Virus record (IMG/VR): IMGVR_UViG_3300030098_004930 | Span: 1 to 27,951 of that record | Strand: one strand, 5' to 3' | Origin: a virus | DNA: 27,951 nt | The notes under the pieces: generated by a model | Database searches by the model: none | The model's input: the letters and a program-made list of their open reading frames with translations, nothing else | What the model was told of the DNA's origin: nothing | Position numbers and translations under genes: made by a program | In this document: piece after piece, positions 17,725 through 27,951 of the stretch | Numbering within the stretch: position 1 is the stretch's first letter | Layout of the letters: every line of letters begins with the position of its first letter

Positions 17725-17955
17725 TTACTTATAGTGTTTTGGTTTTATACGCTTTGCTTTTTGTTTTTTAAGTAAATCATCAAAACCCTTTCCTGCTTTT
17801 TCAGCATTCTTCATAGCATCGTTGTATAATTTTTTTAATTTAGGATCTTTTAAAAGTTGTTTCTCTTGTTTTGTTAACTTTGAACGAGTAAAGAGTTTTT
17901 TTAAAGCATCAAAAAATCCCTCTGTGAGTATGTTTTTTCCATTCATAAAAGACAT
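17725..17955 (-). CDS. Small basic protein of unknown function (76 aa)
   Basis: A lysine-rich helical protein. Its N-terminal segment NILTEGFFDALKKLF is amphipathic and is followed by a charged helix region (LTKQEKQLLKDPKLKKLYND) and a basic tail ending KRIKPKHYK. It has no signal peptide and no cysteine. I do not recognise a family. The position between the gp26/+1 chaperone region and the tape measure suggests a role in tape-measure folding or tail assembly, or internal packaging. AGGAG sits nine nt before the first ATG; a second ATG four codons in is possible. The stop lies 2 nt before the tape-measure start, so the two are coupled. The upstream gap carries the ATATTTAT element. Confidence 0.65.
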   Translation of the reverse strand: MSFMNGKNILTEGFFDALKKLFTRSKLTKQEKQLLKDPKLKKLYNDAMKNAEKAGKGFDDLLKKQKAKRIKPKHYK

Positions 17956-17998: not shown

Positions 17999-18235
17999 TT
18001 ATTTTGGGTTAAATCTACGAGGGATTGTTGGTGTAGATTGTTGTTTAGATTTCTTTAATTCTTCGTTTTGTTTTTTAACAAAATCAGAATGTTCTCGATA
18101 ATAAAAATTTCTTAAGTGAACAGGCATTTCATAAATATCAGAGTATGTAAAAGCCGTATTATCTTTTAAGAAAACAAATATATTTTTATGAAATGTTAGT
18201 TTATCAGATGGATTTAGGCCAAAGAAACTCGACTG
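17999..18235 (-). CDS. +1-frame ORF after gp26: candidate frameshifted tail-assembly chaperone domain (gp51-like)
   Basis: An open frame of 78 codons begins just after a stop at 18238-18236 and ends with TAA at 18001-17999. It overlaps the end of the gp26-type gene by about 30 nt in the +1 frame. It has no ATG, GTG or TTG before an internal ATG (start of MPVHLRNFYY) that would leave only 42 residues. Yet the codons before that ATG encode protein-like sequence: FFGLNPSDKLTFHKNIFVFL, then KDNTAFTYSDIYEMPVHLR. In T4, genes 26 and 51 are adjacent baseplate-hub assembly genes, and many tailed phages make a second chaperone by frameshift just before the tape measure. The simplest readings are a programmed +1 (or -2) shift that gives a fusion of about 320 residues, or an indel in the sequence. 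Likeness to gp51 is from memory and weak. Confidence 0.6.
   Translation of the reverse strand, partial: QSSFFGLNPSDKLTFHKNIFVFLKDNTAFTYSDIYEMPVHLRNFYYREHSDFVKKQNEELKKSKQQSTPTIPRRFNPK
18204..18235 (-). other. Candidate +1 ribosomal frameshift window
   Basis: This is the only stretch where both frames are open. In the gp26 frame it reads GAG TTT CTT TGG CCT AAA. TTT followed by C lets a Phe tRNA re-pair with TTC after a +1 slip, as in influenza PA-X. CTT TGG C resembles the CTT TGA C site of bacterial prfB. A GAG lies just upstream. I see no strong downstream hairpin. Confidence 0.45.
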
Positions 18236-18953
18236 TCAACGGAATTGACACGCTAACAGACTCACCTCCTATTTCGATTTCCGATGTCAAATCAATATCG
18301 GGAGAAATCTCTTGAATGTGATTTCTCAATGCTGCGGAATCACGAGCTAATACATTTTGTGAAAAGGCAGTTATTGTTTCTGGCTTATCATCTCCATCAA
18401 CTTCAATAATGGTATGACGAAGACGAGTAGATATTGAGGTGTTATATCCATACTTACTTGATTGTTCAAGTTCTTTCTCAATTATCTTCTCTTCTTTACC
18501 AGTAATTAGTTTAAACTTAATTTTGTTTTTACCAACAGGTGTTTCAAATTCAAAACAATTATCACTATAATCCACATCTTTGACCGACTCTTTGAAAGGA
18601 CAATTTGTTAAGTCAAAAGTATGTTCAACTTTTTGTTCAATGTTATTCGGATTTGTGACCTCAACAGTATATTCAGGACCATAAGCAAGGATACGAGCTG
18701 CAACTAGAACAGCGTTTTTGTCACCTACTAATAAATCATCTGATGTTACACCTTTTGTAACAATCAGACTATCTAACAATTTATCAATAACCACACCTTT
18801 TTTTATGAGGTTTTCAGACATCAATATGTCTTCCTCTTTTGCGGTCATGTATTTTAATTCTAATTTACCTTCAGCAAGTGGTGAATCTTTTGGATATACT
18901 TTTCCACCAGACGGTAAATCTATAACTTCCGTAGGGAACTTATGTTCTGACAT
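18204..18953 (-). CDS. gp26-type baseplate/tail assembly protein (probable chaperone)
   Basis: A 249-residue protein of the T4 gp26-like baseplate protein family. The N-terminal block FPTEVIDLPSGGKVYPKDSP followed by LELKYMTAKEEDILM is the most recognisable part, and GVVIDKLLDSLIV follows. A beta-rich middle contains NCPFKESV and CFEFETPVGKNKIKFKLITG, and the last third holds the helix KEEKIIEKELEQSS and a final strand SIPLTVEFLWP. In T4 gp26 takes part in hub assembly. Its place between the tube gene and the tape measure is that of a tail-assembly chaperone in other phages. AAGGAG lies 6 nt before the ATG. Its last codons overlap another open frame (17999-18235), so part of the product may be extended by frameshift. 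Confidence 0.8.
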   Translation of the reverse strand: MSEHKFPTEVIDLPSGGKVYPKDSPLAEGKLELKYMTAKEEDILMSENLIKKGVVIDKLLDSLIVTKGVTSDDLLVGDKNAVLVAARILAYGPEYTVEVTNPNNIEQKVEHTFDLTNCPFKESVKDVDYSDNCFEFETPVGKNKIKFKLITGKEEKIIEKELEQSSKYGYNTSISTRLRHTIIEVDGDDKPETITAFSQNVLARDSAALRNHIQEISPDIDLTSEIEIGGESVSVSIPLTVEFLWPKSI

Positions 18954-18984: not shown

Positions 18985-19179
18985 TTACTTAGAACCGAAG
19001 ATTTTTGAAAAGAAACCTTTTTTCTTTTTCTTATTACTTTTCTTCATTTTCTTCTTTTTGGTTTTTTTCTTCTTTTTGATTTCTTCCATACCTGCCATGT
19101 TCATTTCCATAGCATTAACAGTAGGGACAGCACCAAAAAGAATTACAGCAGAAAGTATTAATTTAAATATGTTTTTCAT
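18985..19179 (-). CDS. Small exported polylysine protein of unknown function (64 aa)
   Basis: The first 23 residues form a clean Sec signal peptide: MKN, hydrophobic core IFKLILSAVILFGAV, and an AXA-like site at PTVNA. The predicted mature part has 41 residues, 18 of them lysine, in runs (KKKKK, KKKK, KKKKK), and ends GFFSKIFGSK, which could be a short amphipathic anchor. The start codon overlaps the stop of the tube gene (TAATG), so translation is coupled to a very abundant protein. I know no family for it. Possible roles are binding to the anionic outer face of the inner membrane or to lipopolysaccharide during lysis, or superinfection control; all are guesses. The lysine run is encoded by A-rich codons, so sequence accuracy there deserves care. 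Confidence 0.65.
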   Translation of the reverse strand: MKNIFKLILSAVILFGAVPTVNAMEMNMAGMEEIKKKKKTKKKKMKKSNKKKKKGFFSKIFGSK

Positions 19180-19667
19180 TAGAACTCCAATATAGCGTAA
19201 TCGTATCTTAGGGTTAGTGTAATTTCAACAGGATTAGAATCAGTAAAATCTAAATCACCAAAAGCAGCATCTGAGATGTAAGTACCATAAAGTGTCCACT
19301 TTTCAATGATATCACCTACAGGTCCTAAAACTTGAAAATTAATATTCTTTTTATAAACATCTTGATACCCATCACGACCAGTAGCACTCTCGTGATGTAA
19401 TCTTACCCACTCGATAACAGCAGAAGAAGCAGAGGGAACAATAGGATCATAAAGAGTAATTTGTAGAGTTTGCCATCTACCTTTACCCTTTACATACCTG
19501 GTAACATTCATATGTTCCAAAACAACCTCATCAAAGGTAATTTGTGGTCTTTGCATTGTCTTTATAGTAAAGGCAGGTATACCATCAATTTCCATGATAA
19601 AACGATTTTTTAATTTCGGTTCATATGGTGTGTAAAATACTTTATTCGCTTCTAATAATTCAGCCAT
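19179..19667 (-). CDS. Tail tube protein (gp19-like)
   Basis: Forms the stacked hexameric inner tube through which DNA passes. The 162-residue length matches T4 gp19 (163). Recognisable parts are YEPKLKNRFIMEIDGIPAFTIKTMQRPQ near residues 15-42, GKGRWQTLQITLYDPI near 61-76, and the closing beta strand NPVEITLTLRYDYAILEF. There is no cysteine. It directly follows the sheath gene, the standard order in contractile-tailed phages. The ATG has AGGAG eight nt upstream, and the short leader carries one ATATTTAT element, so it may have its own transcript in addition to read-through from the sheath gene. Confidence 0.92.
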   Translation of the reverse strand: MAELLEANKVFYTPYEPKLKNRFIMEIDGIPAFTIKTMQRPQITFDEVVLEHMNVTRYVKGKGRWQTLQITLYDPIVPSASSAVIEWVRLHHESATGRDGYQDVYKKNINFQVLGPVGDIIEKWTLYGTYISDAAFGDLDFTDSNPVEITLTLRYDYAILEF

Positions 19668-19707: not shown

Positions 19708-21543
19708 TTACTCAGGAAAAGCAGCTCCTGTTGGTTGTACAACAAAGTCCAATACAATAAACTCAGCAGTCCTTGTAGGTTGGATAAATATCTGACCTAT
19801 TAACTGATTTCTATCTATGGTGTCTGGTGTATTGTTTGAGTCATCCATCACTACCCTATAGGCATTTAAACCTTGATTAGCTTGAACTTGATCCATATAA
19901 GGATTAACAACATTCAAGAATTGGTTTCTTAAGTCTGTTGTGTTTTGTTCGAACACAAGAGTTCTTGAGGAGTTAGCAACGAACTTCTTAAGATTGATTA
20001 ACAATCTTCTTACATTCACTCGGTCAAGAGCAGAAGCTTTCTTCTGTGTTGTTTTCTGTCCAAAAACAGTAACACCTTGACCAGGAAAGGTAGCAATAGG
20101 ATTGACGTTTGATTCATAAAGGTCATCTCTGTTACCTTGTGTTAGTTTTCTGTATGCCTGTACAGCACTATCAATTCCACCTCTGTTCAGTCCAGCAGGA
20201 GCAAACCAAGGTTGCCCGATAGTATCGTTAAAGTGATACACACCAGCAAGAACAACTGATGGTGGCACATATCTAAAGTTACCAGTTGTAGTATCTTGAA
20301 TCTGTATCCAAGGATAGTAGACAGCAGCAAAACTTGAATTACGAGCTTCTGTGTTTGTTTTAGCATTAGCTACCGTATCTGTCAAGAAAGTATTATCATA
20401 TACTAAGAAACAATCACCTCTATCCTCACACATTGATATAGCATCAGTTATAATAGCATTAGAATTTGTTCCGTTTTGGTCAAGGATACCTGGTAAAAAC
20501 AACATATCGATATCGAACTCATCTTTATTTCTCAAAAGATTAATAGCAATTTTATACCCACCACCACTTGTAGATAAGGTCGTACTACTTGTTGCTAAAT
20601 CAACACCTTGACTATTAGTGTCACTATCTGTTTCTAAATAAAAGTTAAATGGATGAAGAGCATTTTGAGTTCCAAACTCACCACCAGCAAAAATTCCACC
20701 ACCACTACCACTACCTAATAATGGTATGTATATTTCACCATCACCATATCTATCAGTATCTCTAGTTCCATCTTCTTTTAAGTAGTTAGGTGTTTTTATC
20801 GAAAGACTACTTACTCTAACATTTTTAGATCTGTTTGGAAACTCACCAGTAGTTTGTACAAATGCTTGGTCACCCTCAACAGCAATACTTTTAGTTTGAT
20901 TGCCTATTCTTTTTAGAATATAGTTTGGTGATTCTGGATCTAAGGATAAATTTTCAAAAGTTTCTATCACTTTCTTTTTAGCTTCTTCATCATCACCTTG
21001 ACGAAGAACTAATGTAAAAGTTCCTTTAGAAAGATTTCTCTGAGATATTTCATATCTAAAGTTATCATGTCTTCCACCAAAACTTCCTGAAGTAAAATGA
21101 TTGTTGGTAATGCTTGTAGCTAAAGGTAATAATCTTTGTTTAGAATCAAGTGAAGAACTGTTATTAAATAGAGTACCGTCTCCTATTGCCTCTAACTCAA
21201 ATACTGCTGGTAAAGATGCCGCAGAACCACTAGCATTGATAGTAGCAGTAGCTTTAGCTAAGCCAGGATCACCAACTCTAACTACAGTTAGAGGACCACC
21301 TTGTCTCAGATATTCTTTGGCTGCATGTGATGTCAAATATTGAAATTTGTCACTACCACTTTCAATTAACTCACCGAATACATTGACATATTCTGAGTAA
21401 GAACTAACGACTGTTGGTTCGAGGATAGGACCTTTTACAGTTGGACCTACAATAGCAGCTCCAATAGGACCGGCAGTTGCCGGTAAAAATGATTGGTCTA
21501 TTTCATTTGTAAATACACCTGGTGATACGATTTTCTCAGCCAT
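19708..21543 (-). CDS. Tail sheath protein (gp18-like)
   Basis: Contractile sheath subunit that surrounds the tube. The 611-residue protein begins KIVSPGVFTNEIDQSFLP, the typical sheath N-terminus, then GPIGAAIVGPTVKGPILEPT, YLTSHAAKEYLRQGGPLTVVRVG (about 65-93) and a variable surface domain near 120-320. The conserved C-terminal domain includes WIQIQDTTTGNFRYVPPSVVLAGVY, PWFAPAGLNRGGI, a VNPIATFPGQGVTVFGQKT segment, ALDRVNVRRLLINLKK and a final strand AEFIVLDFVVQPTGA. T4 gp18 has 659 residues. The last domain supplies the strands that knit sheath rings together. Its leader can fold into a long hairpin that includes part of the ribosome site GGAGA, so translation may be regulated. Confidence 0.94.
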   Translation of the reverse strand: MAEKIVSPGVFTNEIDQSFLPATAGPIGAAIVGPTVKGPILEPTVVSSYSEYVNVFGELIESGSDKFQYLTSHAAKEYLRQGGPLTVVRVGDPGLAKATATINASGSAASLPAVFELEAIGDGTLFNNSSSLDSKQRLLPLATSITNNHFTSGSFGGRHDNFRYEISQRNLSKGTFTLVLRQGDDEEAKKKVIETFENLSLDPESPNYILKRIGNQTKSIAVEGDQAFVQTTGEFPNRSKNVRVSSLSIKTPNYLKEDGTRDTDRYGDGEIYIPLLGSGSGGGIFAGGEFGTQNALHPFNFYLETDSDTNSQGVDLATSSTTLSTSGGGYKIAINLLRNKDEFDIDMLFLPGILDQNGTNSNAIITDAISMCEDRGDCFLVYDNTFLTDTVANAKTNTEARNSSFAAVYYPWIQIQDTTTGNFRYVPPSVVLAGVYHFNDTIGQPWFAPAGLNRGGIDSAVQAYRKLTQGNRDDLYESNVNPIATFPGQGVTVFGQKTTQKKASALDRVNVRRLLINLKKFVANSSRTLVFEQNTTDLRNQFLNVVNPYMDQVQANQGLNAYRVVMDDSNNTPDTIDRNQLIGQIFIQPTRTAEFIVLDFVVQPTGAAFPE

Positions 21544-23144: not shown

Positions 23145-23620
23145 TATCTTGGTCTTTCTTCAATGTTTATTGATGATAATCTACTACGATGTGCTGTAGC
23201 CTTTATAGAGTGACTAAAGTTTGGATGACCACCAATAAGTTGTGGTTCAGTCACTCCATTTATTTCCCAATACCAATCATTCCAATCACAGATATCACCA
23301 GCCTCAGGAAAAAAGTTCAATGAACCACTTGCTAAGTTATTTCTCTGAAACATTAAATCAATACTAGAGTTAGTATCCGGTCCTGCTTCTTGAAATTGTT
23401 CTACTTCAGGTGCGTTATATCGTATTAGACAATTAACTCTAAACCCTACATTAAAATACTTAGTTGTACTTTCTCCGTATATGTTTGATGGTGTGTGTTC
23501 AGTTGCGACTTTATAGATATCTACAGATTGACCAACTATCTCATCGATAAGTTCTTCATTCATGTGGTCAACTAAGTTTATTTCCTTTTGAGAAATAAAA
23601 AATGGTCGTGTAGCAGACAT
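23144..23620 (-). CDS. Putative neck/head-tail connector protein (gp14-like?)
   Basis: A 158-residue beta-rich protein. A helical N-terminal segment (KEINLVDHMNEELIDEIVGQ) leads into YFNVGFRVNCLIRYNAP and SIDLMFQRNNLAS. The closing half, FFPEAGDICDWNDWYWEING followed by HPNFSHSIKATAHRSRL, resembles the 'GD..YFP..WEI..V' strand pattern of head-closure and gp14-type neck proteins. Its order after the gp13-like protein and before the gp15-like protein is the T4 order 13-14-15, apart from the ferredoxin inserted in between. T4 gp14 is longer (256), so this would be a minimal version. The start ATG overlaps the ferredoxin stop (TGATG), indicating coupled translation. Confidence 0.5.
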   Translation of the reverse strand: MSATRPFFISQKEINLVDHMNEELIDEIVGQSVDIYKVATEHTPSNIYGESTTKYFNVGFRVNCLIRYNAPEVEQFQEAGPDTNSSIDLMFQRNNLASGSLNFFPEAGDICDWNDWYWEINGVTEPQLIGGHPNFSHSIKATAHRSRLSSINIEERPR

Positions 23621-23922
23621 CAGTTCATCTCCAAACCAAAAAAGTCATAATTTTTTTTGATGTAATTTTGCCATTCATCAGGCATTTCACTTTCTTCAAA
23701 TATTGCTTCAACCGGACACTCAGGTTCACAAGCACCACAATCAATACATTCCTCAGGATTTATATAAAGTGAATCGGTTTCTTTTGGTACAAACCCATCT
23801 ACTTTTGCCTCAGCACCGGCACCTTCTGTGTCATAAGGACCGTGAATACAATCCACTGGACAAACTTCGACACAAGCAGTATCACAAGTACCAACACATG
23901 GTTCTGCTATTATATATGGCAT
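23620..23922 (-). CDS. Bacterial-type 2-cluster ferredoxin (FdxA/7Fe-8Fe type)
   Basis: A 100-residue low-potential electron carrier. MPYIIAEPCVGTCDTACVEV and the following CPVDC form the first cysteine group (Cys9, 13, 17, 21, 25); ECIDCGACEPECPVEAIF gives Cys59, 62, 65 and 69 for the second. In Azotobacter-type FdxA a [3Fe-4S] centre uses the Cys equivalent to 9, 17 and 69 and a [4Fe-4S] centre uses 21, 59, 62 and 65. The extra Cys13 could supply a fourth ligand and make this an 8Fe protein. The C-terminal part (MPDEWQNYIKKNYDFFG) matches the helix tail of this family. It is much longer than clostridial ferredoxins but usual for FdxA. It is embedded between neck genes: start 3 nt after one stop, stop overlapping the next start by one base. 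The family call is firm; its role in the phage is unknown. Confidence 0.9.
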   Translation of the reverse strand: MPYIIAEPCVGTCDTACVEVCPVDCIHGPYDTEGAGAEAKVDGFVPKETDSLYINPEECIDCGACEPECPVEAIFEESEMPDEWQNYIKKNYDFFGLEMN

Positions 23923-26842: not shown

Positions 26843-27951
26843 TTAAGATTTAAGACCAGCAAGCTTTCTGAAACGGTCTGCTACTTGACTTTCCTCAGTA
26901 ATGATTTTAGTCTTTGGTGCAGTTCCACCAGATTTCTTACTAGCATATGATTCCTTAACAACTTCTTTTCTTTCACCACCATTGTCTTTATAAGACTCAG
27001 CTAGTGTAGAATAGACCAACTTAATTTCACGAGTTGTTTGAGCTCTATCAAAAGTCTCAACAATTTTCAACTTTTGGTCGTTACTCAATACAAACTCTTT
27101 GAAAAGTTTGTTGGTATATAGAAGTTTAGCATTAAGGATGTTAACTTCATGAAGCTTATCTCTTAAGAAAGTGACAGCTTCTTTATACTCATTAAGCTCG
27201 CCTTGTAGCTTTTCAACTTGTTCGTGAGTTTTACCCTTACCAGGATCTTCTTCATCAGCAGCACTTGGTTGAACAACTTTGTTGTCACCAGCACCTATAC
27301 CAGATGATTTGGACTGTTCTTCAAGGTCTTCTTCTTCATTCACAGACTCATCTTTTTCTTCATCTTCATCGTCTTCATGAGCACCTTCTTGAACAGACTC
27401 TTCTTCTTCACCAGGTTCAGATTCATTTAACTCTTCTTCAAGCTCTTTGATTACTGCCTCTAAATCAAGTTCGAGGTCCTCATCCATCTCATCATCATCA
27501 TCTTCTCTACGAGGATCATCTTCTTCTTTTTCAGAAACAATTGGAGCATACTTCACACCATCGATTTCAACGATTTCGGATTCATCCATTTCATCGTCAT
27601 CATCTTCTCTACGAGGATCATCATCATGCATACCTTCGTCTTTTTTCTCATCGTCATCATCTTCTCTACGAGGATCATCATCATGCATACCTTCGTCTTT
27701 ACCTTCTTCATCATCATCGTCTTCCCTAGAAGGTCTTGGTGAATACATACCTTCATCGGTTTCTTCTTCATCGTCTTCATGAGCACCTTCTTGAAAATCT
27801 TCATCTTCTTCAAGGTCTTCTTCAGCCAACTTAGCAGAAAGCATTGATTTTAAGTGTGGAGTGAATGCTTCTTCAAGAGCCATTTTAGCGTTTTGCAATG
27901 CAGTTTCACGAACAGCTTTAGCATCAGCGATAGCTTCTTTTAATAAATCAG
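26843..27951 (-). CDS. Prohead core scaffolding protein (gp22-like), 5' end outside window
   Basis: Forms the internal scaffold around which the capsid assembles, then is digested by the prohead protease. The frame is open to base 27951, with DLLKEAIADAKAVRETALQN visible before the first in-window ATG (27883), so the true start is probably only a few codons beyond the edge. N-terminal residues are helical (EEAFTPHLKSMLSAKLAEED). The middle (about 230 residues) is extremely acidic and repetitive, including two copies of EGMHDDDPRREDDDDE. The C-terminal ~120 residues form a charged coiled coil (HEQVEKLQGELNEYKEAVTF) leading to FKEFVLSNDQKLKIVETFDR and the end VADRFRKLAGLKS, which resembles the gp22 tail that binds the shell. 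It directly precedes the capsid gene, as in T4. Confidence 0.85.
   Translation of the reverse strand, partial: DLLKEAIADAKAVRETALQNAKMALEEAFTPHLKSMLSAKLAEEDLEEDEDFQEGAHEDDEEETDEGMYSPRPSREDDDDEEGKDEGMHDDDPRREDDDDEKKDEGMHDDDPRREDDDDEMDESEIVEIDGVKYAPIVSEKEEDDPRREDDDDEMDEDLELDLEAVIKELEEELNESEPGEEEESVQEGAHEDDEDEEKDESVNEEEDLEEQSKSSGIGAGDNKVVQPSAADEEDPGKGKTHEQVEKLQGELNEYKEAVTFLRDKLHEVNILNAKLLYTNKLFKEFVLSNDQKLKIVETFDRAQTTREIKLVYSTLAESYKDNGGERKEVVKESYASKKSGGTAPKTKIITEESQVADRFRKLAGLKS
27591..27704 (-). repeat. Tandem 57-bp repeats in the scaffold gene
   Basis: Two head-to-tail 57-bp units start at 27591 and 27648; the first 53 bases are identical and the last four differ. Each encodes a 19-residue unit containing EGMHDDDPRREDDDDE. 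Partial, diverged copies lie on both sides (around 27490-27530 and 27705-27760). The unit is a multiple of three, so copy-number change keeps the frame. Confidence 0.85.

Follow-up and report, generated by a model that had tools for sequence, protein, structure and literature searches.

A probable programmed +1 frameshift linking short and long forms of a gp26-type tail assembly chaperone

The tail assembly chaperone gene of the virus considered here is probably decoded in two ways. We analysed the whole of IMG/VR record IMGVR_UViG_3300030098_004930 (positions 1 to 27,951; 27,951 nt), referred to throughout as ‘the window’, and conclude, with a probability of roughly 0.87, that a programmed +1 frameshift near the end of its gp26-type gene yields a short and a long form of the chaperone, of 249 and 317 aa (Table 1). 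Most ribosomes would read the gene through to its stop codon and make the short form. A minority would skip one base forward on reaching the Phe codons close to the gene's end, where peptidyl-tRNA-Phe on UUU would re-pair with an overlapping UUU or UUC; in the window the move would be from UUU to UUC or, alternatively, a tRNA-Leu would shift from CUU to UUU. Slow decoding of the codon that follows probably assists the slip. Shifted ribosomes would read 73–74 further codons, and the long form would thereby carry an additional helical domain. The chaperone function of both forms is suggested by analogy with gpG and gpGT of phage lambda: the short form may coat the tape measure, the added domain of the long form may recruit tail tube subunits, and neither form would be present in the virion.

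Table 1. Positions of the chaperone locus and its neighbouring tail genes in the window
Feature	Position	Strand	Remarks
Short tail assembly chaperone (TAC-N), encoded by the gp26-type gene	18204..18953	-	249 aa, ATG start
+1-frame extension ORF (TAC-C)	17999..18235	-	78 codons, without usable start; stop at 18001-17999
Candidate +1 slip site TTT_CTT_TGG_CC	18217..18227	-	codons 243-246 of the gp26-type gene
Predicted +1 product, long chaperone (TAC-NC)	18002..18953	-	317 aa; four-base step at codon 244
ATG internal to the extension	18125..18127	-	improbable start; lacks a Shine-Dalgarno and is preceded by conserved protein sequence
Basic 76-aa protein between chaperone and tape measure	17725..17955	-	from the ORF list
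Tape measure protein, 666 aa	15722..17722	-	similarity to immuto tape measure
Tail tube protein (gp19-type)	19179..19667	-	PF06841 E=8e-7, phrog_4542 E=1.7e-30
Tail sheath protein (gp18-type)	19708..21543	-	PF04984 E=1.8e-11

The tail genes run in the order sheath, tube, a Lys-rich 64-aa ORF, the gp26-type gene, a 76-aa ORF and tape measure. The chaperone gene sits between the tube and tape measure genes, as in the lambda G/GT kind, and two small ORFs lie there also. The first-pass annotation had pointed to phages, lambda among them, that make two chaperones by frameshift just before the tape measure; here the gene is near the tape measure, and the 76-aa ORF, which has no significant family match in Pfam or PHROGs, intervenes. 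The tape measure protein resembles its annotated counterpart in Flavobacterium phage immuto (E=2e-18; 31% identity over 203 aa). The gp26-type gene has a Shine-Dalgarno sequence, aaggag, ahead of its ATG (context aaggagttataATG), and the 0-frame protein ends ...VEFLWPKSI. The 64-aa ORF in the tube–chaperone interval (18985-19179, minus strand) encodes a hydrophobic N-terminal stretch and a very Lys-rich tail. Elsewhere among the structural genes, between those for capsid gp23 and sheath, lies a gene for a ferredoxin-like protein with 4Fe-4S motifs (23620-23922, minus strand; PF00037, E=4e-10). An ORF adjoining gp23 (26843-27898, minus strand) contains an acidic, repetitive stretch of repeated DDPRREDDDDE-like units, and is possibly scaffold-related. 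At the end of gp23 (25201, minus strand) the +1 frame is open for 67 codons beyond the stop; it is out of frame with the next gene and possibly open by chance.

By sequence homology, the gp26-type protein is a member of Pfam family PF12322 (T4_baseplate), the family of T4 gp26 (E=1e-8; 35.6 bits, against a cut-off of 24.5), and it also matches phrog_150 (E=1.5e-8). The AlphaFold2 model is confident over residues 1 to about 240. The best PDB fold match of the N domain is the HK97 tail assembly chaperone (2ob9; Z 5.8, 3.5 Å over 78 residues), and the second is YqbN, a prophage tail-region protein (3klu; Z 5.7, 4.7 Å over 87). The Z values of these two matches are moderate (below 8), the next being 4.0, and a Foldseek search returned no PDB match of significance.

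The first-pass annotation had described a 78-codon frame that continues out of the end of the gp26-type gene in +1, has no ATG, GTG or TTG before an internal ATG, and shares the motif TTT CTT TGG C with the gene. This description is accurate. The frame begins at 18235 and ends with the stop at 18001-17999, its first start codon is the ATG at 18127, 33 codons past the junction, and the motif lies at 18227-18218; the overlap with the 0-frame ORF amounts to 29 nt ahead of the 0-frame stop codon. From base composition alone, the chance of 69 open codons after that stop is about 0.003, and the frame is, judged from its sequence, more than an accident. We searched IMG/VR, took the best 80 loci of at least 600 matching stretches, and added six phage records; the 76 loci with a complete extension form 57 clusters at 85% protein identity. 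The +1 extension is open in all 57 clusters (76 loci) and encodes the same single conserved domain of ∼75 residues (consensus FFGLxPxxKxxLHxQIFxLxYxGxGFTxxDVYxMPVYLRxFY). Within codons 9-60, stops occur in none of the 57 clusters in the +1 frame, and in 57 and 52 of them in the other two frames. That an original single ORF was broken by an assembly indel or by gene decay has next to no probability, the split itself being the sole point in favour of this reading. The identical split recurs across 57 independent clusters as well as in isolates with complete genomes, and because so many independent contigs and isolate genomes display it, assembly error is excluded.

Divergence from the 0-frame stop up to the internal ATG was compared among the window and its ten closest relatives (among the loci kept). 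Read in +1, 341 of 755 codon changes are synonymous (45%), against 69 of 740 (9%) and 86 of 797 (11%) in the other frames, and differences at +1 codon positions 1, 2 and 3 number 326, 219 and 546. Since divergence here is coding-like in +1, translation very probably covers the codons ahead of the ATG, which bears out the earlier impression that these codons are protein-like: they are conserved, and they evolve as coding sequence. In one relative (L011:4001-4760) a Glu codon is replaced by an in-frame TAA ∼17 codons ahead of the slip site, with slip site and extension intact; either an error in sequencing or a genuine nonsense change could account for it.

The same comparison bears on whether the extension could be a separate small protein, of the kind annotated as a short gp51, produced from the internal ATG or from a non-standard codon by coupled re-initiation. 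Separate ORFs of this kind are annotated in the genomes of relatives, and the ATG at 18127 does exist. The codons upstream of that ATG are conserved and diverge as coding sequence, however; the stretch preceding it (gatatttatgaaATG) contains no Shine-Dalgarno-like sequence; and in T4 gp51 the equivalent domain is joined to a complete chaperone. Homologues with a normal start for the second ORF were looked for, and no start codon is conserved among them. First start codons in the +1 ORF are scattered across loci, from 26 codons before the junction to 34 after it, and some loci have no start at all (the +1 ORF of L059 lacks any ATG, GTG or TTG). Translation from a conserved start is ruled out on these grounds, and a separate protein is extremely unlikely.

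The site at which ribosomes would enter the +1 frame is narrowly bounded. In 10 clusters a +1 stop directly precedes the pair of Phe codons, and the 0-frame stop comes 5 to 8 codons beyond the first Phe; entry is therefore confined, in these clusters, to the 5–8 codons ahead of the 0-frame stop. Of 84 loci, 61 have TTTTTTTGGCC at the junction and 15 have TTTTTTTACCC; the junction of the window, and of immuto, reads TTTCTTTGGCC. All 57 clusters carry a TTT in frame at the junction, with T or C as the next base, and +1 re-pairing of tRNA-Phe is possible in every one. This supports a slip at the TTT CTT codons that had been named from the window, and retention of the same overlap and slip codons by homologues, set as a test beforehand, is seen across the 57 clusters. 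UUU_UUU is present in 51 of them; the window has UUU_CUU_UGG_C. Where the pair is Phe-Phe, it is TTT_TTT in 51 of 54 clusters compared with 59% expected from upstream Phe codons, 77% of which are TTT (P=5e-9, assuming that clusters are independent). No consistent 3′ RNA structure was found (mean z -0.69; 15 of 57 clusters below -2; window -0.18). A GAG or GGG triplet stands right before the Phe codons in 41 of 84 loci, and is Shine-Dalgarno-like with the spacing of RF2, but it is only a partial element; AAC and AGC are also common at this place, and so we make no claim for it.

Two other kinds of slippage would also lead into the extension. A -2 slip would make the same fusion, in the same frame, with one extra residue. 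The run of seven T in relatives permits -2 re-pairing, formally in 54 of the 57 clusters when G-U pairs are allowed, but the slip is impossible in the other three (L005, L035 and L064), and in the window it would require Leu-tRNA to pair with UUC through a G-U pair, whereas the +1 move from UUU to UUC is fully cognate. The +1 slip, unlike the -2 slip, is possible in all clusters, and we regard the latter as unlikely. Slippage of RNA polymerase on the T run would produce some transcripts with an indel, and ribosomal recoding would not be needed. The TTTTTTT of most relatives favours this, but the sequence is TTTCTTT in the window and in immuto, and TTCTTTT, TTTCTAT or TTCTTTC in others, with runs of three or four T. 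Such runs are generally too short for polymerase slippage, and we regard this explanation as very unlikely. We infer that it is the ribosome that shifts, rather than the polymerase, that the step is +1 and taken by a minority of ribosomes, and that both proteins are made.

After a +1 frameshift the extension would read FFGLNPSDKL...RRFNPK, or FLGLNPSDKL... if CUU slips. It gets no match in Pfam or PHROGs, and a tblastn search of phages with the 77-aa extension by itself had no hits; its relatives were traced instead by profile and synteny work. In a model of the fusion the extension appears at low confidence because the aligned relatives covered the N part only. Folded alone, from 49 sequences, it forms three helices with a mean pLDDT of 84, and a structure search with this model returned no match.

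In T4 the corresponding proteins are gp26 and gp51, both of which match PF12322 across the full profile. On the 282-position PHROG profile, gp26 ends at 235, whereas gp51 runs on to 280. Because gp51 combines a full-length PF12322 match with this longer reach, it looks like the long chaperone, and gp26 like the short one, made from two genes. Comparison thus modifies three earlier proposals. The gp26- and gp51-like parts of the window were held to be joined by recoding: a programmed +1 shift has strong comparative support, but T4 gp51 corresponds, on this reading, to the long chaperone and not to the extension alone. Genes 26 and 51 of T4 were described as adjacent but separate; two separate genes they are, but they are divergently oriented paralogs, on opposite strands. 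Finally, the 78-residue frame was expected to resemble gp51. The direct match is weak (prob 24%), and so the tie goes indirectly, through phages in which the extension is in the -1 frame: the +1 and -1 extension profiles match each other (prob 94%, E=1e-7), and the -1 profile matches the gp51 C-terminus (prob 97%, E=9e-12).

The -1-frame extension occurs in HTVC008M, P-SSM2, P-RSM4, S-RIM8, phiM7, AS-zj, Mendera and three Vibrio phages, and also in Desulfovibrio phage 7757, Menlow, Vi01 and IG49, with entry at TTT_TTC or a similar site. In Kyanoviridae, Ackermannviridae and relatives, the -1 entry into the homologous extension is at the same FF codons as in the +1 clade, and the fusion boundary is the same in the two groups. 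The window does not belong to the -1 polyT group (T_TTT_TTY-like site), the extension being +1 in 57 of 57 clusters and the -1 frame being interrupted by a stop within codons 9-60 in 52 of them. In a tree of the short chaperone all sampled +1 members, including those of Bacillus phage SP-15 and Flavobacterium phage immuto, form one group (support 100/99), and frame polarity is therefore a lineage trait; the gp26 and gp51 paralogs also group together (98/93). The tree supports these groups and not a deep root, and either +1 or -1 may be the ancestral state. We think it probable that one homologous junction is decoded in three ways: by a -1 slip (Kyanoviridae, Ackermannviridae and others), by a +1 slip (the clade of the window), and by duplication into genes 26 and 51 (the family of T4). 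The Phe-Phe boundary would have been kept in both frameshifting groups, and the direction of recoding would have flipped in evolution with the product unchanged. ORFs annotated as ‘gp51, baseplate hub assembly catalyst’ in cyanophages and HTVC008M (L089, L090, L091 and L101) are mis-started fragments of the -1 extension; the 45-aa ORF of HTVC008M matches phrog_634.

These observations have several consequences. Nature here sets +1 against -1 frameshifting at one position of a single protein family, so that the two can be compared. The truncated look of the short ‘gp51’ genes annotated in many marine T4-like phages is explained, since these genes are the tail end of a longer chaperone. And the clusters provide a candidate +1 slip site that is well sampled (UUU-Y, in many cases UUU_UUU_UGG), whereas predictors still have no general motif for shifts of this class (PMC10885494).

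Frameshifting of T4-like chaperones is, for the most part, known already, and the link was published in 2022; the +1 direction looks new. According to papers that cite them, Vladimirov, Gautam & Davidson (Virology 2022, 566:9-15) identified the tail chaperone genes of T4-like phages. Passages in later papers state that some T4-like phages have one short and one long gene in place of frameshifting (PMC10885494), and that in the chaperone genes of T4-like phages polyT sequences serve as -1 signals (PMC12846349). A review describes frameshifting as widely conserved except in T4, and names HSTV-2 as a likely +1 case (PMC5009743). In the literature found, which includes Vladimirov et al. by way of citing papers, +1 polarity is not described for this T4-like group.

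Of the known systems, these T4-like chaperones are closest. As represented in the citing papers, they share with the window the PF12322 homology, the C-terminal extension, the short and long forms, and the position near the tape measure, but they shift by -1 at polyT, whereas the extension of the window is in +1. The lambda gpG/gpGT pair is alike in that short and long forms share one start, the shift falls near the end of the first ORF, and the locus lies between tube and tape measure. Lambda shifts by -1, however, and the chaperone of the window is larger (249 aa); the two are likened without a claim of sequence similarity. The haloarchaeal myovirus HSTV-2 is described as very likely to shift by +1 at a locus of this kind (PMC5009743). 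It is an archaeal virus, and is likened by description, not by homology. Bacterial prfB, the gene for RF2, shifts by +1 at CUU_UGA_C, which the CUU_UGG_C of the window resembles. At prfB, tRNA-Leu is able to move from CUU to UUU, the alternative slip proposed here. The A-site codon of the window is Trp UGG rather than a stop, no strong Shine-Dalgarno-like element is present, and the site would give two products in place of a release-factor sensor.
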